A stretch of 64,000 nucleotides of DNA from Pseudomonas rhizophila (GTDB lineage Bacteria > Pseudomonadota > Gammaproteobacteria > Pseudomonadales > Pseudomonadaceae): the NCBI RefSeq assembly GCF_003033885.1, contig NZ_CP024081.1:4652388-4716387 (forward strand), in the 5' to 3' direction. The translations under genes were made by a program, and so were the position numbers. The notes beneath the pieces are model-generated. The model saw only the letters and a list, made by a program, of their open reading frames with translations, was not told the DNA's origin and searched no databases. Positions 7,739-60,717 of the stretch are shown one piece after another. Within the stretch, counting starts at the first letter, position 1, and every line of letters begins with the position of its first letter.

Positions 7739-7790
7739 GTCCGGCAAGCCGGAACACGCTCACTTGGATCTTACTGTGCGGAGAGCAATC

Positions 7791-9155
7791 ATGATCCCGT
7801 CACGCGCAATTGACGTCGCCGCCTTGATTGAGGGGCGCAGACTGTCGAGTTTCAACTATCTGATCATCTGTGTGTCGGTGCTGATCACCTTCCTCGATGG
7901 CTTCGACTTGCTGATGCTCTCCCACACCGCCGCCTACATGGCCGAGGACATTGGCCTGGATAAGTTGCAACTGGGCAACATCTTTTCCATAGGTTTGTTC
8001 GGCATGATGTTGGGTGGATTCTTTTTCGGTTATCTGGGTGACCGGATCGGCCGTCGCCCGACCATCATCCTGTCCACCAGCGCCTTTGGCCTGATGACGT
8101 TGCTGTTCACCTTGGCCGATAGCTACGCCTCGCTGCTGATCTTGCGCTTTCTCAATGGCTTTGCCTTGGGCGCCATGTTGCCACTCTGTTGGGCGCTGAA
8201 TATCGAGTTTGTGCCCAAGCGCTACCGTGCAACCGTGATCACAATCATCATGGTTGGCTTCAGCCTGGGTGGCGCGGTTGCCGGCCCTCTAACCGTGTGG
8301 ATGGCTCCCCACTATGGCTGGGCCAGTGTGTTCGCGCTGGGCGGCATCGCAACGTTGCTTTCCAGTGTGCTGTTGTTTTTCACCCTGCCAGAATCGGTGC
8401 GATTTCTGGTGAGCAAGCAAAGACGCCCCGAAACCGTGGCGCGGATCCTCAGGCGCCTGGATCCGGACATCGATCTTCGCGCCGGGGACCGCTATTTTCT
8501 TGCCGATGAAATCGACATCGGTCACCGACCTTTCCTTGTCGGACAGTTGTTCATCGGCAAACTGAAATGGATCACTCCCATGATCTGGATTGGCTTTGGA
8601 GCAAGCTCCATGGCCATGTATTTTCTCGCGTCATGGAGCCCGCTGGTGTACCAGTACGCCGGTTTCGACCGGGCGACTGCATCATGGGTGAGCTCCTTTG
8701 CCTCGTTCAGCGGCGCCATGGCCGGGCTCGTATTGATGCGAGTGGTCGACACCCGGGGGCCCTACGCCGTGATGATCTATCCCCTGCTGTCATTACCTTT
8801 TCTGCTGGTCCTGGGCATTGGCGAACTGCAAGGAGACGCCTTTATTGCACTGAGCCTGATGGGCGCTATTTTCGTCAAAGGCAGCCACTACGGCATCACC
8901 AGCATCGCCGGGGTTTTCTACCCAAGTGCCATTCGCGGCAACGGCGCCGGATGGGCAGCGTCAATGGGTAAGATCGGCTCTGTATGCGGGCCGTTACTCG
9001 GGGCCTACGTGCTCAACAGCGGCATGCCCGTGGTGAAAAGCTTCGCAGTACTGGCTCTATGCCCTGCGGTACTTGGAGTGTGTGCCTATGTCGTGGCACG
9101 CATTGATCGGCGCTCAACCGTGAGCGCCGAGCTTCTGACCACATCGCAGCCCTAG
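7791..9155 (+). CDS. MFS carrier, paralogue of the one at 5025
   Basis: A 454-residue twelve-helix carrier with the same FLDGFDLLMLS and GYLGDRIGRRPT signatures as the gene at 5025. Long blocks are identical, for example FLNGFALGAMLPLCWALNIE. The two differ most in the central cytoplasmic loop and the C-terminal tail. ATG 7791 has GGAGAG eight bases before it. Two paralogous symporters in one operon may cover related substrates, different affinities, or uptake and efflux. A strong imperfect hairpin follows at 9185-9220. Confidence 0.85.
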   Translation: MIPSRAIDVAALIEGRRLSSFNYLIICVSVLITFLDGFDLLMLSHTAAYMAEDIGLDKLQLGNIFSIGLFGMMLGGFFFGYLGDRIGRRPTIILSTSAFGLMTLLFTLADSYASLLILRFLNGFALGAMLPLCWALNIEFVPKRYRATVITIIMVGFSLGGAVAGPLTVWMAPHYGWASVFALGGIATLLSSVLLFFTLPESVRFLVSKQRRPETVARILRRLDPDIDLRAGDRYFLADEIDIGHRPFLVGQLFIGKLKWITPMIWIGFGASSMAMYFLASWSPLVYQYAGFDRATASWVSSFASFSGAMAGLVLMRVVDTRGPYAVMIYPLLSLPFLLVLGIGELQGDAFIALSLMGAIFVKGSHYGITSIAGVFYPSAIRGNGAGWAASMGKIGSVCGPLLGAYVLNSGMPVVKSFAVLALCPAVLGVCAYVVARIDRRSTVSAELLTTSQP

Positions 9156-9184
9156 AAACATTCAACGCAGCAGCGACGCAGGAT

Positions 9185-9220
9185 CATGCAAGTCAAGGAG
9201 TCACGTCCACGACTTGCATG
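9185..9220. terminator. Long hairpin between convergent genes
   Basis: CATGCAAGTC (9185-9194) pairs perfectly with GACTTGCATG (9211-9220), and an inner GGA/TCC continues the stem. It lies between the convergent MFS (ends 9155) and antiporter (ends 9225) genes, so a two-way terminator fits, although neither side has a T-run. Confidence 0.5.
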
Positions 9221-9224
9221 AGCG

Positions 9225-10466
9225 CTATTCGCCCGAGCAAGGGATCACGCGCTTGACCAGCTTACCGATGGTCATACCCTGGATCAGAATCGAAAACACC
9301 ACGACCAGGTAGGTCATGCCAACCACGACATCGCGAGCATCCCCCGGTGGCAACGACAACGCCAGGGCCACCGATATCCCGCCGCGCAACCCACCCCACG
9401 TCAGCACGCTCCAGGAGCCTTCAGGTAACCGGAAACGCTGCCCCAAGATCGCTATCGGGACGCCTACCGTCAACAGACGCGAGAACAAGGTCAGCACGAT
9501 CACCATCAAGCCCGTGACAATGAGCGGGCTGGTGAAGTGGATCAGAATCACTTCCAGACCGATCAGTACAAACAGGACCGCGTTGAGTATTTCGTCAATC
9601 AACTCCCAGAACATGTCCAGGTTTTTCTCGGTCTGCTCAGACATGGCATAAGAGCGTCCATGGTTACCGACGATCAACCCCATCACCACCATCGCCAACG
9701 GGCCGGACACGTGCAAATGAGTGGCCAGGGCATATCCGCCGAGCACAGCGGCCAGGGTGATGAGCACCTCCTCCTGATAGCTGTCGATACTCTTGAGCAT
9801 GCGGAACGTGACGTACCCAACAACCGCGCCTAAAAGCGCACCGCCGCCCGCCTCCTCCAGCAAGAGCCGCGAAACGCCAGTAACGGAGGGCGCGTCGCCA
9901 CTGGCGATCATCGCCAGAATCAGTGAAAACAGCACAACGCTGACCCCGTCGTTGAACAGCGACTCTCCGGAAATCACCAGTTCCACGCTACTTGGAGCAC
10001 CGGCGGATTTCAGAATGCCCATGACCGCAATCGGATCGGTGGGTGAAATCAGCGCACCGAACACCAGGCAGTAGGCAAGCGGCAACTCCAGGTCGGTAAA
10101 AGACAGCAGCCACCATAGCCCGAAGCCGATGAACAGCGTCGACACAGTCGTGCCAACCACAGCCAGGGACGCCACCTGCCATCGATAGGCGCGCAGTTGC
10201 GACAAGTCGACATGCAGGGCCCCCGCGAACAGCAGCAATGACAGCATGCCCTCCATCAGCAACTCGGAGAAGTCGATGGACTCCACCAGTGATTGCTCAA
10301 GCGTGTGCAGGGAGTGAAAGCCCAGCGCATCGGAGGCCATGTTCAATAACGATAAGCCCAAGGCAATACCCATCACGCCAATGGCCGGGGGTAGCCCTAC
10401 GTAGCGCCGATTGAGGTAAGCGAGTACTGCTGTAATGCAGAGGAATATTGCAATAATGTCTAGCAT
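9225..10466 (-). CDS. CPA1-family Na+(K+)/H+ antiporter
   Basis: A 413-residue inner-membrane antiporter of the NhaP/CPA1 type with about twelve hydrophobic segments. The ion-site motifs are present: ALISPTDPIAV (about residues 138-148) and GESLFNDGVSVV (about 166-177). It exchanges monovalent cations for protons in pH and salt homeostasis. It is a single gene, convergent with the MFS gene. The next gene upstream (10549) is on the same strand but 82 bases away and functionally unrelated. Confidence 0.87.
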   Translation of the reverse strand: MLDIIAIFLCITAVLAYLNRRYVGLPPAIGVMGIALGLSLLNMASDALGFHSLHTLEQSLVESIDFSELLMEGMLSLLLFAGALHVDLSQLRAYRWQVASLAVVGTTVSTLFIGFGLWWLLSFTDLELPLAYCLVFGALISPTDPIAVMGILKSAGAPSSVELVISGESLFNDGVSVVLFSLILAMIASGDAPSVTGVSRLLLEEAGGGALLGAVVGYVTFRMLKSIDSYQEEVLITLAAVLGGYALATHLHVSGPLAMVVMGLIVGNHGRSYAMSEQTEKNLDMFWELIDEILNAVLFVLIGLEVILIHFTSPLIVTGLMVIVLTLFSRLLTVGVPIAILGQRFRLPEGSWSVLTWGGLRGGISVALALSLPPGDARDVVVGMTYLVVVFSILIQGMTIGKLVKRVIPCSGE

Positions 10467-10548
10467 TGGGCAGAGGGGTCCATTGGGTACGTTTCAAGTG
10501 CGGCTAGCGTTGCGCTCACAAAGCGCTGCGCCTGGCACCGACAAAACA

Positions 10549-11835
10549 CTAAGCCGTTGCGCAAACAAGCCTTGCGGCAAGCGCTCTGAGCCGCTGCTTC
10601 TCTTCATCGAGCACCAACGCGGCATCGGCTCGCGCGAGCAAGCGATCAGCCTGCCTGGTCGCGGCTGCGCTGAACAATCCAGGATTGATCTGGCTGAGAG
10701 CAATCAGCGCCTTCATCATCCGAATATCCACTTCGACAATGCCGGCGCCATCTCTGGCAATGGGACCAAAAAAATCATCAAACAGGTCGTCAACGTTCAG
10801 GCCATGCAGGAACACACGATCACATTCCGGTTGCGTTACCGCTTCATGAAGCTCAAACGTGCCCCAGCAGGCCAGGCTGCGAACACCACGGCCCAGCACG
10901 TCAATGGCCGTTCCGGAGTCGTTGACCGCACTTGATAAAGCCCGTGAGGCGATTTCCGAAAGCACTGACAGCCCGAAACGCGGATCATGTTCAAAGGTTC
11001 GTCGAACGCCGATGCTCAGGCAGGCGAGAACTTTACTGGCGAGCGGGTCGTCCCCGTCGAGCCCTTCCTCGCTGGCTCGCGCGATATGGACAAGCGGCAT
11101 ACCTGGGTGGACAAAACTTCCGGGCAAGATCTCCAGAAATAACTGCGCCTCGCAACCCCTGGCAACCTCATTGAGTGCCTGTACATCGATATGCTGGACA
11201 TAACCGGTGGTGCCACTGACGACCGGCCGCGCAGACGACGGCATGACCCAACCGTCGGGGTATGCACAACCGCCAAGAAACGGCCATCGAACTCGATGGT
11301 TGATCGCGGCGATGGTCGCCTTCTCTACGCGATCAATCGTCTCGCCGACCCGCCCCAGTTTGGACAGATGATTGATCCAGCGCAAAAGCATGTACACGAT
11401 CAGAATCACCACGCCGATCGTCACTGCGAACAGCAAGACGCGCCCTTGCCCGCCGTAAGCGCCGGTACTCAGCGCGATAATGCCGACCAGACTGAACAAG
11501 AAAGAGCCGATAAAAGTGGCAAGTGCGTTCTGCGTCGTGGTGTCTTCAATCACCAGCGTTGTGGCACGGGGCGTGGCGCCCGTACTTGCTGCGCCATACG
11601 CTCCAACCATGATGCTCAAAGAGAAGGTGGTCACCGCGAGCATGCTGGAAGCGATGATGCCAAGGATGTTGTCGACGGCATCGGCGCCTATCCGGGCAGA
11701 CAAGGAGAACGGAATCCATTCCTTGAGCGCGATGGCCAGCAACGCCGTGACTACGCCCAGCAGCGAAAACAACGTAGCCTTGAACCACAGCTGTTTAGTC
11801 AGCTGCGTCAACAGCCAGCGCCAGCGAGCAATCAT
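10549..11835 (-). CDS. DUF2254 membrane protein
   Basis: A 428-residue protein of the DUF2254 family. Four hydrophobic segments fill roughly residues 20-170, followed by a soluble C-terminal domain with the ERxALSSAVNDSGTA-type region seen here as RALSSAVNDSGTAID. The function of the family is not established. ATG 11835 has AAGGAG seven bases upstream. It lies between an ion antiporter and an OPT transporter. An envelope role is plausible, but nothing in the sequence shows one. Confidence 0.8.
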   Translation of the reverse strand: MIARWRWLLTQLTKQLWFKATLFSLLGVVTALLAIALKEWIPFSLSARIGADAVDNILGIIASSMLAVTTFSLSIMVGAYGAASTGATPRATTLVIEDTTTQNALATFIGSFLFSLVGIIALSTGAYGGQGRVLLFAVTIGVVILIVYMLLRWINHLSKLGRVGETIDRVEKATIAAINHRVRWPFLGGCAYPDGWVMPSSARPVVSGTTGYVQHIDVQALNEVARGCEAQLFLEILPGSFVHPGMPLVHIARASEEGLDGDDPLASKVLACLSIGVRRTFEHDPRFGLSVLSEIASRALSSAVNDSGTAIDVLGRGVRSLACWGTFELHEAVTQPECDRVFLHGLNVDDLFDDFFGPIARDGAGIVEVDIRMMKALIALSQINPGLFSAAATRQADRLLARADAALVLDEEKQRLRALAARLVCATA

Positions 11836-48866: not shown

Positions 48867-49643
48867 CTAACGTGCCCTCAACAGGTTCAGGGTGCTGCGA
48901 CCGAACATCCGCGTCGACGCCGGCGGTGGTGACGAGGGTCGGTCCGATTGGCCGAAACGGGCTTCCAGCCAGCGCTGGAAAAAGCCCCAGAGAGTGGTCA
49001 ACAAGAGGAAATAGATCGCCACCACCAGGTACAACTCGAACACCCGGAACGTCGCCGACGTGACCATCTGGGTACTGAGCAACAGTTCCTGTACGCCGAT
49101 CACGCTGACCAACGTGGTGTTCTTGAGCATCACGTTGAACTCGTTGCCCAGTGGCGGGACGATGACCCGGAACGCCTGGGGCAAGACAATGCGGCGCATC
49201 AGCTTGGCGAACGTCATGCCCAGGGAACGCCCGGCTTCGTACTGGCCCTTGTCCACCGCGCCGATGCCGGCCCGGATGATCTCGGCCATATAGGCACCTT
49301 CGTTGAGCCCCAGGGCAATGATCGCCGCCTGGATATTGCCGGGAATCACCAGGCCGAACAGATCGATGTCTTCGAAGCGGAAAATCCCCCCTGCCGCCAG
49401 TGCTGTATAGAGAAAGACAATCTGCACCAGCAACGGCGTGCCGCGCATCAGCCACACATAAAAACGCACCGGTAAATGCAGCAACGGATTGCTCGACAAC
49501 CGTAGCAACGCCGCGGCCAGTCCCAGGAAGCAGCCCAGCAGCATCGCCAACACACTGATCACGCAGGTCAGCCAGAGCCCGGTGAGGTAAACATCACTGG
49601 GCTGCAACAGGTACTGCCAAAACACATCCCAATTGAAGTTCAT
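48867..49643 (-). CDS. Polar amino-acid ABC transporter permease
   Basis: A 258-residue membrane permease of the HisMQ/GlnP type with about five hydrophobic segments. The EAA loop reads [29 protein letters not shown] ([16 protein letters not shown], then [13 protein letters not shown]). ATG 49643 overlaps the binding-protein stop by one base (TGATG), so the genes are coupled. There is a single permease gene, so it probably works as a homodimer. Confidence 0.9.
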
Positions 49644-50461
49644 CAACGCTCACCCCAATCAAGAGTGTCACTGGCGACATGCCATTTGCTGAGCAGTTGG
49701 CTGTAGCTGCCATCACTGCGCATGTCGTTGATCACCTGCTGCACTGCGGCGCTCAGTTGCGTGTCGTCCTTGCGAATACCCAGTCCGGTAAGAATCCGGC
49801 TGAAGGCAGGCACCCCTTCCTCAAACAAATCGGAGGCCATGGTGGCGTAATAACCGGCGGTTTCCACCGTGGTGCCGTAGGCATCGACCTGGCTGATGCG
49901 CAAGGCCTGGAATGCATCGGTGTCGGTGTTGTAGACCACCAGTTTCATTCCAGGCTTGCCAGCCTTGATCAGCGCTTCATTCTCGGCGTCGAGCAGCGTC
50001 TTGATGGTGGAGCCATTGAGCACCGCAACTTTATGCCCGGACAGGTCCGACAGCGTCTTGATTGCCTTCGGATTACCCTTGGGCACGACCACCGCCTGGC
50101 TGGAGTACATGTAGTTGACGATATCGATCACCTCACGGCGCTCGGGCTTGTCAAACAACTGGTCGACGATCATGTCGCACTGCTTGGCGAGCAAAGCCGG
50201 GAGCAGCCCGGAAAAGGGAATCACCCGCCACTCGACTTTCTTGTCGCCCACCCGCTTGGCGATTTCCAGGCCCAGGTCAACGGTCAAGCCCCTGGGTTTC
50301 TGCGCTTCATCGAAGGACACCAGGGGCGGCGAATCCATGCCTGAGCAATAGACGAGTTTTTCGACCTTGAGCAAGCGCTCCGGAACAACGGGCGCGGCAA
50401 CCGCCCACTGAGCACAGAATCCCAAGGATAGGGCGGCAACCAACAGGCGAGGCTTATGCAT
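49643..50461 (-). CDS. Amino-acid-type periplasmic binding protein
   Basis: A 272-residue family 3 solute-binding protein. A signal peptide (1-22, ending AVA) precedes LVYCSGMDSPPLVSFDE; LTVDLGLEIAKRVG is the standard SBP_bac_3 motif. It delivers a polar amino acid or gamma-glutamyl compound to the permease. It is first in the operon of binding protein, permease, ATPase and gamma-glutamyltransferase. Confidence 0.9.
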   Translation of the reverse strand: MHKPRLLVAALSLGFCAQWAVAAPVVPERLLKVEKLVYCSGMDSPPLVSFDEAQKPRGLTVDLGLEIAKRVGDKKVEWRVIPFSGLLPALLAKQCDMIVDQLFDKPERREVIDIVNYMYSSQAVVVPKGNPKAIKTLSDLSGHKVAVLNGSTIKTLLDAENEALIKAGKPGMKLVVYNTDTDAFQALRISQVDAYGTTVETAGYYATMASDLFEEGVPAFSRILTGLGIRKDDTQLSAAVQQVINDMRSDGSYSQLLSKWHVASDTLDWGER

Positions 50462-50537
50462 GACCAGACACTCCAGTTCAGTTAGTAACGGGCAGTACTC
50501 AAAGTCAAAACAACGGCAGGCTCGGGGCCCGCACTGG

Positions 50538-51206
50538 TTATTTTTTCGATTGCAGAAATTGGATCAACTCAGGAACGGTGCCTTCGATGTGCGCACGCAC
50601 CACTGCCTCGGCCTTATCGGCGTCGCCAGTACGAATCGCCTCGAGAATCACCGCGTGTTCCTGGCGCGCACTCAGCGGTTTTTCCACGTGCTCAAGCCAT
50701 AGGCGCATGGGCGCCTCGATCAAGGAATAGAGGGCACTGATCTGCTTCAGCAACCGGGGACGACCGCTGAGGCTGCACAGGTATTCATGAAAGGCGCGAT
50801 GCCGGCTGACCCACTCGGCGCTTTCCTCGCGGTAATCGTCCATCTCGTCCAGCAGACGCTCCAAGGCTGCCAATTGGCGCTCGCCTATCCTGGCTACCGC
50901 GACACGGATCGCCAGGCCTTCGAGGACGCTGCGCATCTCGAAGACTTCGTGCAGCTCATCGATATCCAGGCCACTGACAACGGCCCCGCGATTGGGTCTA
51001 AGGGTCACCAGGCCCTGGGCGTCCAATCGACGGAACGCCTCGCGCACCGGCATCCGGCTCATACCGATCTCGCTGGCGATGTCTTCAGCGATCAGCCGGT
51101 CACCCTTGCGCAATCGTCCCCCGCAAATGGCGTCCAGCAGGAAGTTGTAAGCCTCCTCCTCGGCCGTCATCGACGGGCGCCCAACGTAACTCGGAGCGAA
51201 TTGCAT
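50538..51206 (-). CDS. GntR regulator, FCD (FadR) subfamily
   Basis: A 222-residue regulator. Winged helix: RKGDRLIAEDIASEIGMSRMPVREAFRRL; the FCD effector domain follows with the metal-binding-type histidines (RHRAFHEYL and later E/H residues). ATG 51206 has AAAAGGTG eight bases upstream and is preferred over 51290. It lies 76 bases upstream of the ABC operon on the same strand and likely represses it with a carboxylate or amino-acid effector. A 10-bp inverted repeat sits just before its start. Confidence 0.86.
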   Translation of the reverse strand: MQFAPSYVGRPSMTAEEEAYNFLLDAICGGRLRKGDRLIAEDIASEIGMSRMPVREAFRRLDAQGLVTLRPNRGAVVSGLDIDELHEVFEMRSVLEGLAIRVAVARIGERQLAALERLLDEMDDYREESAEWVSRHRAFHEYLCSLSGRPRLLKQISALYSLIEAPMRLWLEHVEKPLSARQEHAVILEAIRTGDADKAEAVVRAHIEGTVPELIQFLQSKK

Positions 51207-51215
51207 GGCAGCACC

Positions 51216-51253
51216 TTTTGAATTTTTGTATCCAATTATCCATAAATTCAAAA
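51216..51253. promoter_or_regulatory. Perfect 10-bp inverted repeat before the GntR gene
   Basis: TTTTGAATTT (51216-51225) and AAATTCAAAA (51244-51253) with an 18-base AT-rich centre. It begins 10 bases upstream of the GntR start, so it may be an autoregulatory operator or an mRNA stem. Confidence 0.4.
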
Positions 51254-51579
51254 AGCAGAATGCGTGCCAACTGAATGGATCGATGTGCAAGTGATTGATT
51301 TGAAGGAAAGGGTCTTGCTATGGGGCGTGCATGGGCCCGGCGTCAATTGGGTAGACGTGCTACCAAATGGCTCAAGCGACGCCCATTAGTGTGCACAGTG
51401 GTAGCCAGGTAACACTCAATCAGCCAGCCCTGGGAGTGTCCGAAGGTGACTCACCAAACAGCGCTCGGTAATGACCTTCCAAAACGGCCATAACCTACTA
51501 AGGTTTTAATCGCCTGCTGAATCGGCGCGATTGCGCCCCCAGATGACCACCGTGCGACTTCCAGGGAAGGAGAAACCGT
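51254..51579. other. Intergenic region, no gene seen
   Basis: It contains an imperfect dyad (TTGGGTAG...CTACCAA, 51347-51366) and the strong GGAAGGAG ribosome site of the gene at 51580. I see no supported reading frame. Confidence 0.45.
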
Positions 51580-52260
51580 ATGAATGCCAGATCGGACCCG
51601 GGCGGTGACGGCATCGTCCTTATACTGGGGGCCACCGAAAGCGTCGACAGTGTGGCCTACGCCTACGGGCATGCGCGCGAGACACTCTGGGATCACCCGC
51701 GCAATGCCGATCTGCGCCGTCAACACCCGGACGGGACGGCGCTCGCGGCGGGTGATTCGTTGTTCGTCCCGCCGCGTGTGAAAGCGACCTTCGAACAGAA
51801 CGCCACCGGGCAAAGACACACCTTCCGCGTACTGAACACCCCTGCCATGCTCAGGTTTCGCCCTTATGCCCTCGCCGGACAGGGCCTGGCCCGGCACTTT
51901 CAGGTACTGCGCGGTGACACGCTGCTGGGCAGTGGCGAAGCCGAAGCCAACGGCGATATCGTCTGGCCTCTGGAGCCCACCGCCGACGACATCACCGTGC
52001 GCGTAACCTTTGACGGCTTCTCCCGCGACTATCATCTGAGGCTGCGCGCGCTCGACCCGATCAGTACCCTCAAAGGCGTGCAGCAGCGTCTGCGTGGCCT
52101 TGGCTACTTCAACGGCGACTGCGATGGTCAGATGGATGACGCGACCCGTGTGGCCATCGGTGCGTTCAAGATGCAGGCCGGATTGCCCGACGACAATGAG
52201 TTACTCAGCGATGCCGTACGCACCGCGCTCCACGGCTACCACGGCGAGGCCCCCGTATGA
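51580..52260 (+). CDS. LysM-like and peptidoglycan-binding domain protein
   Basis: A 226-residue protein. The N-terminus (VDSVAYAYGHARETLWDHP...LAAGDSLFVPPR, residues about 22-66) resembles a LysM domain ending in the usual FVPP. A beta-rich middle begins GQRHTFRVLN. The C-terminus (about 160-220: GVQQRLRGLGYFNGDCDG, then FKMQAGLPDDNE) is a peptidoglycan-binding type 1 domain. There is no signal peptide, which is unusual for a wall-binding protein and is typical of cargo moved by contractile secretion systems. It overlaps the HNH nuclease gene (ATGA). Confidence 0.78.
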   Translation: MNARSDPGGDGIVLILGATESVDSVAYAYGHARETLWDHPRNADLRRQHPDGTALAAGDSLFVPPRVKATFEQNATGQRHTFRVLNTPAMLRFRPYALAGQGLARHFQVLRGDTLLGSGEAEANGDIVWPLEPTADDITVRVTFDGFSRDYHLRLRALDPISTLKGVQQRLRGLGYFNGDCDGQMDDATRVAIGAFKMQAGLPDDNELLSDAVRTALHGYHGEAPV

Positions 52261-54170
52261 TCAGGGTTCGCAAAACGCCTACGGCCCCTCCCGCGCTACA
52301 GCGCTCGCACGATGCCATGAAAAACAACGTCCTGCAGGCTGTCCAGGCTGGCGCTTCGGTGGTCCTCTGCACCAAAGGCACCAACACCGCCAAAACAAAA
52401 AGTGTTCCCAAAGGCTCGGTGAAGGTCGTCATCGATGACGACCAATACAAACCGCCCCACGCCAAAGCGCTGCTCAAGGTCGACCAATATGGCAAGTGCG
52501 CCTTTTGCGAGGCACGCTTCATGGACACCGCAGGCGGGGATGTTGAACATTTCCGGCCGAAAAAACGCCACGACGGTTTCGTTCCAGTGAACGACAAGGC
52601 AATGGATAACCTCGGTTATTTTCAGTACGTGTACGACTGGAGCAACCACTTGTGGTCATGCAAGGAGTGCAACGAGACCTACAAGAAGAACTACTTTGAC
52701 GTGATACCGGACAATCTGGCGCAACCGCCGCCGAGACTGGAAGACTTCAACACCGAGGATGAGTTCTGGGACGCCATTGGCGAATGGGGCCGGTTCAGGC
52801 CACCGCGCCACGACGCGTGGGACGACCCGCACAACGCCGAGAAACCGGTGTTGATCAATCCTGTCACCGAGAATCCCCGCGAGCACATCAACTTCAATTG
52901 CGCGACAGGACTGGCCATCCCCGCCCCTCTGAATGACCTCAACCAACAAATGCAGCCCACCAGCGACAGGGGTGGCAAGAATATCCTTGTGCTCGGTCTG
53001 AACCGCAAGGAGCTTGTGTTCGCCCGCATGCGGCATCTGACAATGTTGCGAGGGGTTTTTCTGGAGATGACCCACAGCCTCGACCTGACAATCGAATTCC
53101 TGAAATGGCAACGTGGAGAAGAGTGGTTCAAGACCTTGCAGGAACCGACATTGCGCCACCTGGTGAAATACCCCGACGCTTATCAGGTATCGGACAATCC
53201 AACGCGCTGCGCTATCGAGTTTTTGTTCTATTCGACAACGCCCCAGGCACCGTTCTCTGGATTGGCAATGGACGCCTTTGCCTGCTGGAGCCTGGAACTG
53301 GCCCGGCACGTGATGCAGTTGCGCGAGCACATCACTCAACTGCAGGCCGCACAAAGCGGGATAGCCCCGGCCACCCGCAGCGTCCACGAACTCCCCCGGC
53401 TCAGTCTGCATGCGACCATCCTCGCTACCTACAAGGCGGACATGAAGGCGCTGCAAGCATTGCGCGACACCCTTGAGGTGTATGCTCCGCTATGGAATGC
53501 CGGCTTTGAGCAAACGCACATCGAATACGTCTGCCGGGATCGCCTGGAAAAAGTCATGGCTGAACACGCCCAATTTTTCCTGTGGCAAAAGAACTATACC
53601 CGTTACGACCCGGCTTTCGTCGCCGGCTATCTGACCCACGAACGCAACTTCCTGGATGTCTACAACGCCCTGGAAACCTATGAGTGCGACAAGAGTACAT
53701 GGAGCAATGCGATAGACGCGATGAGGCGAAACCTCAATAGATACGGGCCGGATCTCGCAGAAGACCTCACGCCCCATTGCAATCAGGTCGTCGCCCGACT
53801 CAAGGTGGTGACGCAAGCGTTCGACCAGGATCGAAACCTGACTCAGACAGCGCCCTGGTGCAACGAAGTGGTCAAGATAGGACAGGATGCTGAACAGCTT
53901 ACCGCTGAGCTCGACCGCCGTTGCCAAGCCTGTGGGAACGAAGATGCCAGCAACAGCACCACTGAAATGCGCACCACGCTGACGAAAATCGCCAACGCCG
54001 TCGCCAAGCTGAAAGCGGGCGACATTCCCCGAGAAGTGACGCCACTTGAATTGCCAGCCCCGCCGAAGCCCTGGATCACGCCAAAGGCCACCGGGCTGCG
54101 CAAGCGCGCCGGCATGCCCCAAGACCTGGACGCCGCGTGGAAGCACATTCGTTTGCGATCCAATTCATGA
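52257..54170 (+). CDS. HNH nuclease, PtuB/TIGR02646-like, large
   Basis: A 637-residue protein. The N-terminal quarter is an HNH module of the type in PtuB and retron-associated nucleases: C81-x2-C84 (CAFCEARF), VEHFRPK with H98, WSNHLWSC-KEC (C135, C138) then N139, and VLINPVTENPREHI after it. The remaining 430 or so residues have no recognised domain and look largely helical, with a further CxxC (RRCQACGNED). It is much longer than simple PtuB proteins. It is translationally coupled to the wall-binding protein at 51580. No PtuA-like ATPase, retron or restriction gene is present. It could be a secreted nuclease toxin or a defence nuclease. Confidence 0.78.
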   Translation: MIRVRKTPTAPPALQRSHDAMKNNVLQAVQAGASVVLCTKGTNTAKTKSVPKGSVKVVIDDDQYKPPHAKALLKVDQYGKCAFCEARFMDTAGGDVEHFRPKKRHDGFVPVNDKAMDNLGYFQYVYDWSNHLWSCKECNETYKKNYFDVIPDNLAQPPPRLEDFNTEDEFWDAIGEWGRFRPPRHDAWDDPHNAEKPVLINPVTENPREHINFNCATGLAIPAPLNDLNQQMQPTSDRGGKNILVLGLNRKELVFARMRHLTMLRGVFLEMTHSLDLTIEFLKWQRGEEWFKTLQEPTLRHLVKYPDAYQVSDNPTRCAIEFLFYSTTPQAPFSGLAMDAFACWSLELARHVMQLREHITQLQAAQSGIAPATRSVHELPRLSLHATILATYKADMKALQALRDTLEVYAPLWNAGFEQTHIEYVCRDRLEKVMAEHAQFFLWQKNYTRYDPAFVAGYLTHERNFLDVYNALETYECDKSTWSNAIDAMRRNLNRYGPDLAEDLTPHCNQVVARLKVVTQAFDQDRNLTQTAPWCNEVVKIGQDAEQLTAELDRRCQACGNEDASNSTTEMRTTLTKIANAVAKLKAGDIPREVTPLELPAPPKPWITPKATGLRKRAGMPQDLDAAWKHIRLRSNS

Positions 54171-54863
54171 GCCGCGGCATCGCTCGACGGCACGCTGATC
54201 GAGTTTGGGAAACGTCACCTGACAGTTGCCGGGATCAACCCCTTCCGCTCTCGCCCGGCCGAGTTCGTCAAGCACACCGCTGCGCTGGGTCCCATTGGGC
54301 AGCACAATGACGTAGGGCTCCCCGCTGACGGGCTGCCCCTGCATATCCAGTAACTCGATCTCCACAAAGGTCAGCGCAACCGGCTCAAGTGGATTGACGG
54401 ACTCGGACGAGGCTTTTACCTGCGCACGCTTGTGAGCCGCGGCGGACACCGGTGCAACAACCGCTTCCACAGCGCCCGAGGCCGGTAGGCGAACGGGCAT
54501 CGGTCGTTGATGTGGAGACACGTAAGCACACAACTCGCCACTCGACAGCTTGCCCGCGACCTGACGGCGAATCTCGTCATCGTCCAGCAGATGGACCAGA
54601 ATCCCCTGGGCGGACAATAGCGCGCGCAGACGGGCTACTTCACCGCTCCCGGCAAAATGTCGGCGAATAAAGCGCTCTGCCTGCCACGGTTCACGCACAT
54701 CGATCCTGGTCGCCGGGCTTGCCTCTCGCAGCGCGGACTGGCCATCAGCAAGGTTGGATCGAGTACCCAGCTCGATGCGATCGGCCCCGTCAAAAAAACA
54801 AATCCGCATAGGCTGCCAGTCCCGGGCAGGAGGATGAAAAGGCAGTGTAGATGATCCAGGCAT
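54165..54863 (-). CDS. Protein with C-terminal transthyretin-like domain
   Basis: A 232-residue protein. The C-terminal 60 residues (LTFVEIELLDMQGQPVSGEP, then LPNGTQRSGVLDELGRA) form a carboxypeptidase-regulatory/transthyretin-like beta fold that is common in proteins of contractile-injection loci. The N-terminal half is unrecognised. No signal peptide is apparent. Its end overlaps the end of the HNH gene by six bases, tail to tail. ATG 54809 (MRICFFDGAD) is an alternative start. An immunity or adaptor role for the nuclease is conceivable but unproven. Confidence 0.65.
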   Translation of the reverse strand: MPGSSTLPFHPPARDWQPMRICFFDGADRIELGTRSNLADGQSALREASPATRIDVREPWQAERFIRRHFAGSGEVARLRALLSAQGILVHLLDDDEIRRQVAGKLSSGELCAYVSPHQRPMPVRLPASGAVEAVVAPVSAAAHKRAQVKASSESVNPLEPVALTFVEIELLDMQGQPVSGEPYVIVLPNGTQRSGVLDELGRARAEGVDPGNCQVTFPKLDQRAVERCRGS

Positions 54864-55007
54864 CCCAACTCAGGGTGTGTTGCGAAACCCGGCGACCATT
54901 CGGAATGCCGCGCCAACCGGACAGGAGTTCCGGTCCAGGATGGCGCGCACCTTTGTACTGATCTTTTTCCGATAGATGTCCAGTAAACCGCTGCGAGATA
55001 CAGCCGC

Positions 55008-55415
55008 TTATTTTCCCCCCTCGCAATTGACCATCCAGGCAATCCCGAAACGGTCTTCGAACATCGCAAAACGTTCCGCCCAAAAGGTCTTCGCCAGGGG
55101 CATCTGCACGGTGCCACCTGCACTCAAGCCATTGAACAGCCGTTCGGCCTCTTCCACGCTGTCGACGTTGAGGGAAACCGACACGCCTTGCGGTTGGCGA
55201 TACGGCTGGCCTGGCGGGCAGTCGGAAGCCATCAGGCTGAAATTGCCCACGGTCAGGCAGGTGTGCATGATCAGGTCGGCGTCCTTGGGCATGCCGACGT
55301 CCTCCGGCGCCTCGGCAAAGGACATGGAAAACAGCTCGCCGCCAAGTACGTCCTTGTACAACGCAAAGGCTTCCTTGCAGCGGCCGTTGAAGGTCAGGTA
55401 AGGGATGATTTTCAT
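55008..55415 (-). CDS. VOC-family (PhnB-like) protein
   Basis: A 135-residue glyoxalase/bleomycin-resistance fold protein. It starts MKIIPYLTFNGRCKEAFALY and ends FGIAWMVNCE, as PhnB-like VOC proteins do. AGGAG lies eight bases before ATG 55415; the longer frame to 55556 runs into the neighbouring gene. The activity is unknown. It follows a YCII protein, a pairing often seen together with an ECF sigma gene, which is absent here. Confidence 0.85.
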   Translation of the reverse strand: MKIIPYLTFNGRCKEAFALYKDVLGGELFSMSFAEAPEDVGMPKDADLIMHTCLTVGNFSLMASDCPPGQPYRQPQGVSVSLNVDSVEEAERLFNGLSAGGTVQMPLAKTFWAERFAMFEDRFGIAWMVNCEGGK

Positions 55416-55437
55416 GCTCGCAACTCCTGTAGTCGGC

Positions 55438-55863
55438 TCACGATTGATTGGACAACTGCGCCCGCAGACGCTCTTCCTGCTCGCGCAACTCGGGGGTAAA
55501 GCTCTCGCCAAAATCCTCGGCTTCGAAGATCTGGCGGATCTCGATTTCACTGTCACTGATCATCGGGTTCGGGCAGCGTTTGACCCAGTCGATGGCTTCC
55601 TGCAGCGACTGGACCTGGAAGATCCAGAAGCCGGCAATCAATTCCCTGGTTTGCGCAAAAGGCCCCTCGACGACGGTCCGGTTCTTGCCGGAAAACTGCA
55701 CACGCACACCCTTGGCACTGGGATGCAGCCCCTCCCCGGCGAGCATCACCCCGGCCTTGAGCAATTCTTCATTGTAGGCGCCCATGGCGGCGAGCAATTC
55801 TTCGCTGGGCATCTGTCCGGCTTCCGATTCCGGGCTGGCTTTGACGATCACCATAAATCGCAT
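55438..55863 (-). CDS. YCII-related (DGPF-type) protein
   Basis: A 141-residue YciI-like protein: MRFMVIVKASPESEAGQ at the start, GPFAQTRELIAGFWIFQV in the middle. AGGAG precedes ATG 55863. The fold is a small alpha-beta barrel with a possible His/Asp active site; the function is not established. It is 22 bases upstream of the VOC gene and in the same operon. Confidence 0.84.
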   Translation of the reverse strand: MRFMVIVKASPESEAGQMPSEELLAAMGAYNEELLKAGVMLAGEGLHPSAKGVRVQFSGKNRTVVEGPFAQTRELIAGFWIFQVQSLQEAIDWVKRCPNPMISDSEIEIRQIFEAEDFGESFTPELREQEERLRAQLSNQS

Positions 55864-56072
55864 GCGCTTGTCTCCTGAGAGTGGATGGATTAAGCCGCCC
55901 TTGTGGTGGCTCTGCGGACTAATCGAATGGCAAGGGTCGAAATCGACAGCCTGACGCAATTATTTTTTTGGCAGGCCGTTGCGGCTTCAGCCATGGATCA
56001 CTCGGAGCAACGGCGCAGCCTTTCACACCATCCGAATGAACACTGCAAACCGCAGAAACGCTTAAACAGCCG

Positions 56073-57014
56073 TCATGCCCGACGATAGATGCTGGGCGTG
56101 ACCCCCACTTCGCGGCGAAACACCTGGGAAAAATGGCTGGGGCTCGAATAGCCGACCTCCAACCCGACATCGATGATGCTTCGGTCCGTCTCCAGCAGCA
56201 GATGCCGGGCGCGGCTCATGCGCAAGCGAATGAAGTACTGCGAGGGTGAAAGCCCGGTGGCGCGTTTGAACATGCGGCTGAAGTGGTACTCGCTCAGTTG
56301 CGCAACCCGAGCAAGGTTCGCGAGGCTGAAATCGGCGGCAAGCCCCTCGGTCATTGCCTCGATAACGCGGCGCAGTTTGTAGGCCTGCAACGCGTTGTTG
56401 CGCCGGGCACTGCGGTTTGGGTCAAGGTAGCGCCGCACCAAATGCACGGCCAGCGCCTGAGCCAGGCTGTGGGCAAACAAGGGGCTGGGCTGGCGCTCGT
56501 CGATGAGTTCCTGGCGCAGTTGCTCCAACAGGAAACTGATTCGTTCATCCCGGTCACCGGAAACATCGAGGAAGCTGACCGGGTCGGCGTGTTCGCCCAG
56601 TACCTCGCGCGCGGCTTGATCAATCAATGGCAGGCCGAGATACAGGTGCATCACTTCAAAAGCGCCGCAGCCTTGGGTCTGCCAGCGCATCTCGTAGGGT
56701 TCGCCAGTGTTGGTGAGAAAGAAGTCGCCGGTCTTGACGTCGGACGCTACCCATTCCCCACCCAGAACGCGCTCCTCGACCCGAGCCGCGCCCGCCAGCA
56801 CCCACACCAGCAGAGGCTCGACCACCGCAGGCACCAGGATGGGCTCGACGATGCTGTGATGGCTGAACCGCAACATCACCACGTCCTGCATCTGCGGGCG
56901 CGGCGGTAACGTCTGCGGCGTTCCCGGCAAATAGTGCAGCATCGATTCGCCCGTAATGCGTTGAGCATCGCTGGCGAGGTTTTGCGGATCGGGTTGGTGC
57001 ACAGGATGCTCCAT
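56073..57014 (-). CDS. AraC-family regulator
   Basis: A 313-residue AraC protein with an N-terminal cupin (GDFFLTNTGEPYEMRW) and a C-terminal double HTH (FSLANLARVAQLSEYHFSRM; DVGLEVGYSSPSHFSQVFRR). ATG 57014 is chosen; the frame to 57122 adds an arginine-rich leader that is unlikely to be coding. It is divergent from the SDR gene at 57258 and probably controls it together with the small gene at 58263. Confidence 0.84.
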   Translation of the reverse strand: MEHPVHQPDPQNLASDAQRITGESMLHYLPGTPQTLPPRPQMQDVVMLRFSHHSIVEPILVPAVVEPLLVWVLAGAARVEERVLGGEWVASDVKTGDFFLTNTGEPYEMRWQTQGCGAFEVMHLYLGLPLIDQAAREVLGEHADPVSFLDVSGDRDERISFLLEQLRQELIDERQPSPLFAHSLAQALAVHLVRRYLDPNRSARRNNALQAYKLRRVIEAMTEGLAADFSLANLARVAQLSEYHFSRMFKRATGLSPSQYFIRLRMSRARHLLLETDRSIIDVGLEVGYSSPSHFSQVFRREVGVTPSIYRRA

Positions 57015-57257
57015 CGACAAAGCCCTCTGACGAGGGCTGGTGCCAACAGGATAACGCGGCGGCGGCCATGAGCAAGGTTGCGCGACAGACCGTGTGCGCC
57101 GGAGCCTCGCATGCTGGAGCAAAACCCCAACAGTCCAGGCAAGCCTGCGAAAGCCCGAACATGCACATTGAGAGACAGTGAAGCCGTCGATAACGACAGC
57201 GCCTCACGGGCGCGGAGCCGGCGAATGTCTCCTCGGCTCGCAACGCAGGAGAGCATC

Positions 57258-58022
57258 ATGACTGATATCACCTACAGCATCCCCCACGAAGTCGCAGGCA
57301 AAGTCGCGCTGGTCACCGGCGCGGCCAGTGGCATCGGCAAAGCCATCGCACTGTTGCTGCACGCTCGTGGCGCCAAGGTCGTTGCTGAAGACCTGAACCC
57401 CGCCGTCGAAGAGCTCGCCCGTCCCGGGCTGGTGCCGCTGGTGGCGGACATCAGCGAAGACGGAGCCGCCGAGCGCGCGGTCGGCCTAGCCGTCGAGCAG
57501 TTCGGCCGGCTGGATATCCTGGTCAACAACGCCGGGATCATCATCAACAAGCTTGTCATCGACATGACCCGTGAAGACTGGGAGCGCATTCAGGCAGTCA
57601 ACGCCACCGCGGCCTTCATGCATTGCCGCGAGGCGGTGAAAGCGATGATTCCCAACAGATCCGGGGCAATCGTCAACATCGCCTCTTACGCATCCTACTT
57701 TGCCTTTGCGACGATCGCGGCCTACACCGCGTCCAAGGGCGCGCTGGCCCAGTTGACCCGCACGCTGGCGCTCGAAGTGATCGAGCATGGCATCCGCGTC
57801 AATGCCATCGGCGTCGGAGATGTGGTGACCAACATCCTCAATGACGTGGTCGACGACGGCCCCGGCTTTCTGGCCAAGCACGGCGAAGCGGCACCCATCG
57901 GCCGCGCTGCGCAGCCGGAGGAAATTGCCGAAATCGTCGCCTTCCTCGCCTCGGACCGCGCGAGTTTCATGGTCGGCTCGGTGGTTATGGCCGATGGCGG
58001 CATGACCGTCACCGCGGGCTAA
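57258..58022 (+). CDS. Short-chain dehydrogenase/reductase
   Basis: A 254-residue classical SDR: TGAASGIGKA cofactor loop, NNAGI, the catalytic YTASK, and VMADGGMTVTAG at the end. D/E after strand 2 (VVAEDLNP) suggests NAD+. ATG 57258 has CAGGAGA six to eight bases upstream. It is divergent from the AraC gene and 240 bases upstream of an Atu4866-like gene. AraC-SDR-Atu4866 sets are recurrent, but I know of no defined pathway. Confidence 0.86.
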   Translation: MTDITYSIPHEVAGKVALVTGAASGIGKAIALLLHARGAKVVAEDLNPAVEELARPGLVPLVADISEDGAAERAVGLAVEQFGRLDILVNNAGIIINKLVIDMTREDWERIQAVNATAAFMHCREAVKAMIPNRSGAIVNIASYASYFAFATIAAYTASKGALAQLTRTLALEVIEHGIRVNAIGVGDVVTNILNDVVDDGPGFLAKHGEAAPIGRAAQPEEIAEIVAFLASDRASFMVGSVVMADGGMTVTAG

Positions 58023-58262
58023 TGCGGCGTTGTCGCTGCACACCCCGGGGCAAGGATGCCCTCGGCCGGCGTCTGTTGACTTTGGTCTTGATCGATAAGC
58101 CGGTTCGGTGTCGGTTACGCCATACAGGATCAGGCAAACCCGCGACATTTTTGACATAACGGCCAAGCGGATCCACTCCCTAATCTGGACTCACGAAACG
58201 GATGACACCGGACGGCCCGGACAGGGCCATCCGAACTCGCTGTTCAAATGTGAGGGCAGAAC

Positions 58263-58607
58263 ATGAAAAGCATCAGCCGATTGTTGATCGGTACCGCTTT
58301 GAGCGCCGTTGTCGTCTCGGCTGATCTAACCGCAGAAGGAGAATGGAACATGCGACGTATTCAACCTACTACCGCCAGTCACCCCTACACCGGCATGTGG
58401 ATCACCGCTGATGGGAATATTCGCCATGAGCTGTTGCCAAATGGGCGCTACGACGAGGCTCGCGGAAATCGCGAAAGTGCTTATCAGGGGCGTTACGAGG
58501 TGGAAGGCGATTACATCCGCTACTGGGACGACACGGGCTTCACTGCCGATGGAACGTTTCGGGACGGCGTCCTCTACCACGCCGGGATGGTCCTCTATCG
58601 CAAGTAA
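58263..58607 (+). CDS. Atu4866-domain protein
   Basis: A 114-residue protein. A signal-like hydrophobic start (LLIGTALSAVVVSA) precedes a compact beta domain: GMWITADGNIRHELLPNGRY, YQGRYEVEGDYI and TFRDGVLYHAGMVLYRK match the Atu4866 family, whose role is unknown. A good hairpin terminator follows directly, so this is the end of a transcript. Confidence 0.78.
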   Translation: MKSISRLLIGTALSAVVVSADLTAEGEWNMRRIQPTTASHPYTGMWITADGNIRHELLPNGRYDEARGNRESAYQGRYEVEGDYIRYWDDTGFTADGTFRDGVLYHAGMVLYRK

Positions 58608-58612
58608 CAGAG

Positions 58613-58641
58613 ACGCCCGGCTCCTTTTGGCCGGGCGTTTC
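58613..58641 (+). terminator. Rho-independent terminator
   Basis: ACGCCCGGC (58613-58621) pairs with GCCGGGCGT (58630-58638) over an 8-base loop, followed by a short T stretch. It lies six bases past the stop of the Atu4866-like gene. Confidence 0.75.
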
Positions 58642-58725
58642 TCGTCTCGCCAGCATGAAGGATGCATAAAACCACCCTCGAGCGGAGACTGGTCGTCCGT
58701 TTCATCGCCAGCGTTGCACCACCGG

Positions 58726-60717
58726 CTAAGAACGAAACGCATCAACCTTGAGCCCATACCGACTCATCTTGTTGTACAACCCCCCACGCGACACATTCAG
58801 CCGTTGAGCCGCCAGGCGGATGTTTCCGCGCGTGTCTGTGAGGGCGGCAATGATTGCATTCATTTCATGGGTGCCAAGGTCCGGCGCCGTCCGAGGTTCA
58901 GGGACGCTCGCCCACGTCGATAGTCGCCCTCGCTGCCTGATCTCCAGCGCAAGATCGCTCGGCTGGATCAGTTCGCTCATCGCCAGGTTGGTCGCCCGCT
59001 CAATGACGTTTTCCAGCTCGCGAACATTGCCCGGCCAATCGTAGGCGCCAAGCATATCCAGTGCCACGGGAGAAAGGTCCTGCGTCGATTTGCGGAGCGA
59101 CCGGGCACAACGCGCGAGAAAATGCCGCGCCAGCAACGGCACGTCTTCGCGGCGCATCCGCAGTGGCGGCACGGTCAGGTTCAGGACGTTGAGCCGGTAG
59201 TAAAGGTCCTCACGAAAGGCGCCCTCGGCCACCGCCTGGCTCAGGTTGCGGTGAGTGGCGGCAATGATGCGAACGTTGACCCGCAACGATTTTTTTGCCC
59301 CCACCCGTGTCACCTCGCCTTCCTGCAGGACGCGCAGCAAGCTGACCTGGGCATCAAAGGACATGTCACCGATTTCGTCGAGGAAGATCGTCCCGCCATC
59401 GGCCAATTCGAACTTGCCTGCCGAGCCACCGCGAGCCGATCCGGTGAAAGCGCCTTCGACATGACCGAACAGTTCGCTCTGCACTAGGTCACGGGGAATG
59501 GCGCCGCAATTGACCGCCACGAAAGGACCGCGACAACGGTCGCTGGCATTATGGATCGCCTGAGCGAACAGCTCCTTGCCTGTGCCGCTCTCGCCGAGGA
59601 TCAGCGTGGTCGAATCACTGCGACTGGCAATCCGTGCCAGGTGCACTGCATCCTGAATCGCCCGTGAATGGCCCAGGATGGTTTCGAAGGTGTAGCTGGC
59701 CTGGGTGCCCATGATCCGCCGGGTGATTTCCCGAATGCGTCGGTTTTCGCGCAACGAAACAATCCGCCCGCCTTGTTCCAGCGGGCAGACCGACACCAGG
59801 CATGCCAGATGGCTACGGTCGTGCAGTTCAAAGGTGCAGTCCAGGTCCCGTACGCCCTCCCCGCTGGCAAGCAGGACGGCATCGGTCAGCTCACTTTGTC
59901 CCAGGCTCTTGAACGGACTGCCGAGCAGGTCATGGCCCACTCGGAACAACTGACGAGCGTAATGGTTGAGCGCCTTGATGCAGCCCTGCTCATCCAATAC
60001 CACCAAGCCCTCGTTGAGCACTTCAAGCACGGTTTGTTGCTCTTCCAGCAAGGTTTGCAGCGCCATCTGCCTCGAGACCGCCTCGGCCGCGGCCTGGACG
60101 GTGCCCAGCGTATGGAAGTGAAACCAGCCTGGTTCTGCCGTCAAGGTCAACATACCCAAGGTTCGGCCCTGGGCATCCCGGATAGGCGCGGCGGCGCAAT
60201 GCATGCGGCGCTGGCGCAGGCCAAGCCCGAAGTTCTCCTCGGCCAGCACATAGACCAAACGGTCTTCGACGATCGCCAGCCCGGTGCAATTGGTGCCCTG
60301 TACCGACTCCAGCAGGCGACTGCCTATGGGGGTGAGATCCAGGCCACAAAAGTACAGAGTCGTGCCTTGGGTATCGGTCAGATTGATATGGCCCTTGGGG
60401 TTGTAGGCGAGCAAACCGCGCATGACCTGCGCCGCTGCGGCGATCAGCACCCGGTTGGCTGCCAGTGTCGCGGCGAGGTCGTCGGGCGCGACAAAACGGT
60501 ACGCACCGTCTTCCGGATCAAGGCCGGCATGGACGCTGCGCAACCAGGACTCCCAAATCACCCGCCTGATTCCGGCAGGGCGAGCGATTACCCCCTGCAA
60601 GCACGCTCGCCAGGCCTCATCCAGCGCAGTGCTGGGCCCTTCGTTCAATGACGCCGGGCCAAGCGCGGTGAGGTAATCGCGGTCTTCGGCGCTCAAGGCG
60701 GCAGGTTGCTGATTCAT
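58726..60717 (-). CDS. Sigma-54 enhancer-binding activator, AcoR-like
   Basis: A 663-residue activator: GAF-type sensor (about 80-220), PAS (about 225-330), AAA+ domain with Walker A GESGTGKE (375-382) and Walker [12 protein letters not shown] (441-451), and a Fis-type HTH at the end ([20 protein letters not shown]). The sigma-54 contact loop reads GAFTGS (422-427) instead of the usual GAFTGA. It is divergent from the operon at 60906, which has a perfect -24/-12 promoter, so it is the likely activator. The inducer is unknown, perhaps a sugar acid or polyol. Confidence 0.9.

Follow-up and report, generated by a model that had tools for sequence, protein, structure and literature searches.

A PtuB-related HNH nuclease coupled to a LysM protein in Pseudomonas rhizophila: a likely orphan type VI secretion cargo module

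A block of three genes, here named A, B and C, was analyzed within a 64,000-nucleotide stretch of Pseudomonas rhizophila DNA (contig NZ_CP024081.1, positions 4,652,388 to 4,716,387 of the forward strand; hereafter the window). The genome is 5.95 Mb long and consists of a single contig. Gene B encodes a PtuB-related HNH nuclease, gene A a protein with LysM-like and peptidoglycan-binding-type (PGB) domains, and gene C a protein with a transthyretin-like (TTR-like) domain. A preliminary description made from the letters alone had recognized these three open reading frames (ORFs); they are real genes, kept together as a unit in three Pseudomonas species. A and B share the sequence ATGA, the start of B overlapping the stop of A by 4 nt (translational coupling), and B and C lie tail to tail with a 6-nt overlap. 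We consider the block a likely orphan cargo module of the type VI secretion system (T6SS). Its features, in window coordinates, are as follows.

51476..54873: outer limits of the ~3.38 kb A-B-C block common to two other Pseudomonas species at unrelated sites (BLASTN)
51580..52260, + strand: gene A, LysM-beta-PGB candidate carrier/adaptor protein, 226 aa (PF01471, E = 1.2e-6; structure model)
51613..51768, + strand: LysM-like domain of A, residues ~12–63 (model, VIA-align match to 4uz3; profile match to 4uz2)
51832..52044, + strand: beta-sandwich (immunoglobulin/TTR-like) domain of A, residues ~85–155, also present on VgrG C-termini (model, structure matches; tblastn from VgrG L159)
52057..52245, + strand: PGB domain of A, residues ~160–222
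52257..54170, + strand: gene B, PtuB-related HNH nuclease, 637 aa (PADLOC PtuB model, E = 6.6e-40)
52491..52673, + strand: HNH/zinc module of B, residues 79–139
54165..54863, − strand: gene C, N-terminal domain followed by a C-terminal TTR-like domain, 232 aa
54168..54401, − strand: TTR-like domain of C, common to PAAR and VgrG C-termini (alignment A5, genus search, Pfam of targets)

A scan of the species genomes yielded 47 loci with an HNH relative, and searching these with a profile of A revealed an A-type gene (hereafter carrier) at 12: P. kilonensis, P. thivervalensis, P. bharatica, Paucimonas, Massilia (two loci in one genome), an Acidobacteria metagenome-assembled genome, four Myxococcaceae and Andreprevotia. 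Together with the window and genome G522 (locus L151), this gives 14 carrier-HNH loci in 13 genomes of Pseudomonadota, Myxococcota and Acidobacteriota. The two genes adjoin each other at all 14, with gaps of −50 to +75 nt as called; their order runs either way between lineages, and the pair is divergent in P. bharatica. Co-occurrence across genomes had been proposed as a check on the preliminary description, and the unbroken adjacency strongly disfavors A and B being independent neighbors. A protein search returned 42 relatives of B at E ≤ 0.001; for seven of them (P0006–P0009, P0013–P0015) there is a relative of A (P0047–P0053) on a contig of equal length, which suggests the same pairing. In the second Massilia copy (L066, 6714–7196), still counted among the 14, the HNH motif is intact and the carrier gene is degraded (24 bits).

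A tree of the HNH core, built from 47 of 56 candidate loci, places the 14 carrier-linked proteins on one side of a branch (97/99) and the 33 others on the opposite side. Left out were L046 and L049, without a core match, and L010, L037, L058, L063, L065, L067 and L068, scoring below 40 bits; none of these nine loci has an A-type gene, and L011, a second distant HNH of genome G039, also stands outside the tree. The same 47 loci were used to count PtuA-like ATPase ORFs within 4 kb, which accompany 32 of the 33 shorter relatives and none of the carrier-linked HNHs; the profile was made from six ATPase-domain proteins found with B (P0034–36, P0038–40) and may include some HNH columns. At L041, the sole non-carrier locus without such an ATPase, just 179 bases of contig precede the HNH. 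The absence of a PtuA ATPase, already noticed in the window, holds within 4 kb for all 14 carrier-linked HNHs. Its members are 543–785 aa long as called, versus 205–407 aa for the 33 others.

The N-terminal part of B matches PtuB not only in PADLOC but also in NCBIfam (PtuB, E = 2.6e-14; TIGR02646, E = 6.3e-7), although both NCBIfam scores stay below the curated cut-offs (53.6 of 150 bits and 29.6 of 52.15 bits, respectively). The proposed profile search therefore bore out the PtuB likeness but not family membership, and by these scores B is a relative, not a member, of PtuB/TIGR02646. The zinc cysteines, the catalytic histidine and the asparagine are intact in B and in 13 of 13 aligned carrier-linked relatives, in agreement with the complete zinc-type HNH module described earlier; by its motif B counts as an HNH nuclease, with predicted activity. 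The remainder of the protein is poorly characterized and probably helical: a PDB sequence search with B gave designed helical proteins, hexosaminidases and weak PtuB, the profile matches in this region being mostly to the designed helical proteins.

B may cut DNA or tRNA, by analogy with its relatives. According to PMC11555353, tRNA-Tyr is lost when retron-Eco7 PtuAB is expressed, by a direct or an indirect route left open there, Septu PtuAB is reported to degrade DNA, and PtuB alone did not stop growth without PtuA; a later paper places the cleavage in the tRNA variable loop (PMC13096335). The label "DNase" given to B earlier is premature, since PtuA-PtuB systems include a tRNA-Tyr degrader (PMC11555353, PMC13096335).

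Both domain types claimed for A, LysM-like and peptidoglycan-binding, are upheld by the model and by Pfam. VIA-align re-examines only the list produced by Foldseek, most rows of which are common beta folds; a comparison of profiles A3 and A4 gave a probability of 2.2%. The beta and PGB half of A also forms the C-terminus of eight proteins found with A's profile and assigned to VgrG by Pfam (L105, L158–L164). A beta-only profile recovers VgrGs again (E from 2e-10 to 2.5e-6 among 2002 ORFs), and direct tblastn with VgrG L159 returns gene A itself (51859–52221, E = 1.35e-7). Inspection by eye placed four of these VgrGs (L105, L158, L159 and L161) inside T6SS clusters with TssK, TssM and kinase/phosphatase genes; L160, L163 and L164 were outside that look. 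At L159, L161, L162 and L105 the VgrG-beta-PGB gene is followed by one for a protein of 576–605 aa, with PGB near the N-terminus where scanned (L105, L161); at L159, L161 and L162 a secreted-looking protein of ~168 aa comes next, a possible effector-immunity pair. The term "wall-binding" previously applied to A is probably misleading as a label, as a bridging role between VgrG and effector is reported for LysM proteins (PMC10673891).

LysM carriers occur in nine Pseudomonas genomes, with an HNH neighbor in four (the window genome, G039, G640 and G522) and another partner in five. Genome G749 has two carriers, one beside a non-specific endonuclease (PF13930, above the Pfam cut-off; L152), the other beside an EEP-like protein (L153); this EEP-like match, like those of the MBL-fold partner in G009 (L154) and the EEP-like partner in G504, falls below the Pfam cut-off, and the partners in G629 and G035 have no Pfam match. 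EEP-like assignments at L153, L156 and L165 are weak or made by eye. On an Eleftheria terrae plasmid, a TTR gene and a carrier are accompanied by a gene for a 924-aa protein, EEP-like by eye with no Pfam match, with a 4-nt overlap as in the window. A PAAR-like start of L106 was seen by eye only, Pfam giving nothing. Downstream of the L152 carrier (7725–10787) a 1020-aa protein has two FYVE zinc-finger matches (E = 4.8e-26) and weak metallopeptidase matches; FYVE is typical of eukaryotic lipid-binding proteins. Upstream of a Myxococcus pair (L025, 4402–7515) lies a 1037-aa ORF with a C-terminus that appears Ulp1-protease-like by eye.

For gene C the longest-ORF start is probably 18 codons early, and homologue lengths point to a likely start near 54809 (segment 54809–54863). 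Its transthyretin-like domain, also claimed earlier, was established by a TTR profile (A5) with targets checked by Pfam, while a PDB sequence search with C gave no matches. Among 199 Pseudomonas genomes, 18 match the profile at E ≤ 1e-6, in 19 places; Pfam confirms four of these (L171, L173, L174, L177), L172 was assigned by eye, and L175, L176 and the rest are unconfirmed. The domain forms the C-terminus of two PAAR proteins (L171 and L173; PF05488, E = 1.3e-19 and 6.2e-20) and of VgrG L174, and the N-terminus of a class-3 lipase (L177). It is present at eight of the 14 HNH loci: on a separate, convergent gene in the window, L022, L023, L024 and L028; on the same strand and downstream in L151; fused to A in Massilia L026; and weakly, ~3.4 kb away, in L045. 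Massilia L026 has a DUF4123 gene (PF13503, E = 1.4e-28), then a TTR-LysM-PGB fusion, then the HNH gene. The G035 operon runs from a relative of the N-terminal domain of C directly to DUF4123 (E = 1.6e-23), then through two more ORFs to a TTR-LysM-PGB fusion and an unrelated toxin candidate. A role for C as HNH-specific immunity was rejected, because the relative of its N-terminal domain in the G035 operon accompanies a different toxin candidate and because TTR is fused to A-type proteins.

A survey of the window's genome for T6SS loci, suggested in the preliminary description, found two VipB places, six VgrG-family ORFs (seven matches), two PAAR and two DUF4123 places. None is inside the window, where no VgrG or PAAR had been seen before either. 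Taking the sheath gene alone, VipB is present in 12 of 12 carrier-HNH genomes (G522 of the 13 left out) versus five of 17 controls, all five being Myxococcota; outside Myxococcota the counts are 8/8 versus 0/11, and within it 4/4 versus 5/6. The 17 controls were hand-picked from 35 non-carrier loci, with most of them lying on the longer contigs, and divergent types of T6SS may escape the sheath profile.

The block appears to move. BLASTN aligns window positions 51476–54855 to the P. kilonensis locus (L022, 84.4%) and 51496–54873 to the P. thivervalensis locus (L023, 83.5%), about 84% identity in both, with no other match of either to window positions 49000–60000; their flanks differ from those of the window and, two short stretches aside, from each other. 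No clean empty site was found: the best relative shares the left flank up to 51415, and the right flank was not found beside it in five stretches. GC content is 0.57–0.62 across the island and 0.58–0.64 around it. The eight neighbors scanned have ordinary roles in metabolism, transport and regulation: gamma-glutamyltranspeptidase, ABC-transport parts, GntR, glyoxalase-like, YCII, AraC and short-chain dehydrogenase. The pairs of Massilia and P. bharatica both have one dehydratase-like gene nearby (L026, 14987–16360; L045, 6508–7857; 70% identity over 427 aa), a hint that they share an insertion neighborhood. A core phage element was rejected, as none of 50,697 phage records matches B, and so was a core plasmid element, 38 plasmid records matching part of B at below 60% identity and none at 80% coverage. 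Viral contigs hold distant HNH relatives only (24 contigs, 20–36% identity), and one contains a partial relative of A (residues 115–217).

The likely reading of A-B-C as an orphan T6SS cargo module would work as follows. Gene A would encode a modular loading protein that docks on the VgrG spike through its LysM and beta/PGB domains and holds the translationally coupled B there, and C, through a domain also carried by VgrG and PAAR proteins, would be a second loading part; these roles follow by analogy from reported LysM proteins (PMC10673891, PMC5801462). Stand-alone or fused, such proteins were needed for co-precipitation of VgrG and effector in two bacteria (PMC10673891), and a LysM-bearing effector kills in a T6SS-dependent manner in Myxococcus (PMC5801462). 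B would be a PtuB-family HNH protein no longer tied to the PtuA ATPase and extended by a long added region, which after injection would cut nucleic acid in the recipient cell; we infer secretion and toxicity from this context. Good support for the effector-island interpretation of the preliminary description, in which A serves contractile secretion as cargo or adaptor, comes from the domains in common with VgrG and PAAR proteins, from DUF4123 near two A-type fusions and from A-type genes beside other enzymes.

Several observations weigh against this proposal. No complete VgrG occurs at any of the 14 HNH loci, and in the six VgrG ORFs of the window's genome neither a beta nor a TTR domain of these types could be detected, so that A, if it docks on one of them, would need LysM or another surface; the two results together slightly lower our confidence. 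DUF4123 stands at just one of the 14 loci (Massilia L026), and C or its TTR domain is absent from the profile scan at six (L025, L027, L029, L030, L032, L066). The T6SS comparison is confounded by taxonomy, the controls coming from other lineages. The HNH module is N-terminal or central in carrier-linked proteins, whereas a toxin domain usually sits at the C-terminus. When all ORFs within 3 kb were compared with one another (E ≤ 1e-4), no immunity gene conserved across lineages emerged: matches comprised C, ABC-transporter regions (by eye) and the dehydratase-like gene of Massilia and P. bharatica, C alone being a functional-looking recurrence beside B apart from A. In PMC10673891, moreover, LysM goes mainly with cell-wall enzymes rather than nucleases. 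Latency, a target other than bacteria, or immunity encoded elsewhere or confined to single lineages may account for the missing immunity gene, and a lineage-specific gene may exist. A latent B would be inactive in the donor and switched on by a recipient factor, perhaps the recipient's own PtuA-type ATPase, turning a defense on its owner; we regard this idea, prompted by the harmlessness of PtuB expressed without PtuA (PMC11555353), as a long shot.

Absent immunity would also be explained if delivery were directed at eukaryotes such as amoebae or fungi, or served a non-killing purpose. This variant is compatible with the cargo reading and unlikely; no eukaryote-specific feature stood out in B. 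Cargo of another contractile device, an extracellular injection particle or a tailocin, seems improbable: LysM is a core part of extracellular contractile injection systems and occurs in phage baseplates (PMC10673891), and A weakly matches a LysM tail-tube initiator (9g8s, E = 0.21), but the VgrG-beta-PGB relatives include VgrGs within T6SS clusters, the DUF4123 and PAAR links are T6SS features, and the only match for A on a viral contig is partial, no search aimed at injection-particle or tailocin genes in these genomes having been made.

Alternatively, the block could be a PtuA-less anti-phage defense unit, in which B cuts within the infected cell and A senses or anchors. The HNH region is indeed closest to PtuB models, distant relatives lie on viral contigs, and defense cassettes also move between sites, as this block does. 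We nevertheless find this improbable, given the lack of a nearby PtuA-like ATPase in the carrier-linked group versus its near-constant presence elsewhere, the domains that A and C have in common with T6SS spike proteins, and zero PADLOC matches among the ten flanking ORFs scanned (A and C included); retron I-A partner genes were likewise absent from these ten by PADLOC, a search outside which non-coding RNA lies. The "uncharacterised defence unit" offered earlier is accordingly unsupported. That the genes are unrelated neighbors without common function might be argued from their varying order and orientation and the one divergent pair; adjacency at all 14 loci in three phyla strongly disfavors this, and we hold it highly improbable.

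If the cargo reading is true, one branch of a defense nuclease family has moved from immunity against phages to weaponry used between cells, and the loss of the ATPase, with a spike-loading protein in its place, clearly marks that branch. LysM/PGB loading would then extend to orphan modules that vgrG-anchored surveys are not expected to see, LysM-beta-PGB would become a search handle for further cargo, and the apparent absence of immunity would pose a testable puzzle of how donors survive.

LysM-loaded T6SS cargo is a kind already known. In the literature searched, seen in part, we found no description of a PtuB-type cargo lineage or of the orphan LysM-beta-PGB/TTR arrangement, and no match joining TIGR02646, PtuB or Septu HNH with type VI secretion; a paper on the orphan VgrG module of P. 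ogarae (PMC10671463), searched for these features, gave nothing relevant on HNH, LysM or nuclease. The LysM loading proteins of Wang et al. 2023 (PMC10673891) are similarly encoded just upstream of, or fused to, a toxin gene, and PG_binding_1 is another of the six conserved domains of that paper. A-type carriers differ in their LysM-beta-PGB architecture, frequent TTR partner, location away from vgrG and PtuB-type HNH cargo; the LysM toxins described there are mainly cell-wall enzymes, each tested one with an immunity protein, and none is conserved here. TsxE of Myxococcus xanthus (PMC5801462) likewise contains LysM and kills T6SS-dependently, its likeness to A being by description only, and its Nannocystis homologue has PAAR; unlike B, however, it is an amidohydrolase, adjoins vgrG2 and has an immunity gene, tsxI. 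With PtuB, the HNH effector of Septu and retron I-A (TIGR02646), B shares the HNH module and the surrounding core, whereas the carrier-linked proteins are longer, stand apart in the tree and have no PtuA-like ATPase nearby, B itself scoring below the NCBIfam cut-offs. The domain in C is homologous to the C-terminal TTR domains of VgrG and PAAR proteins, but in C it resides on a separate protein with an extra N-terminal domain.

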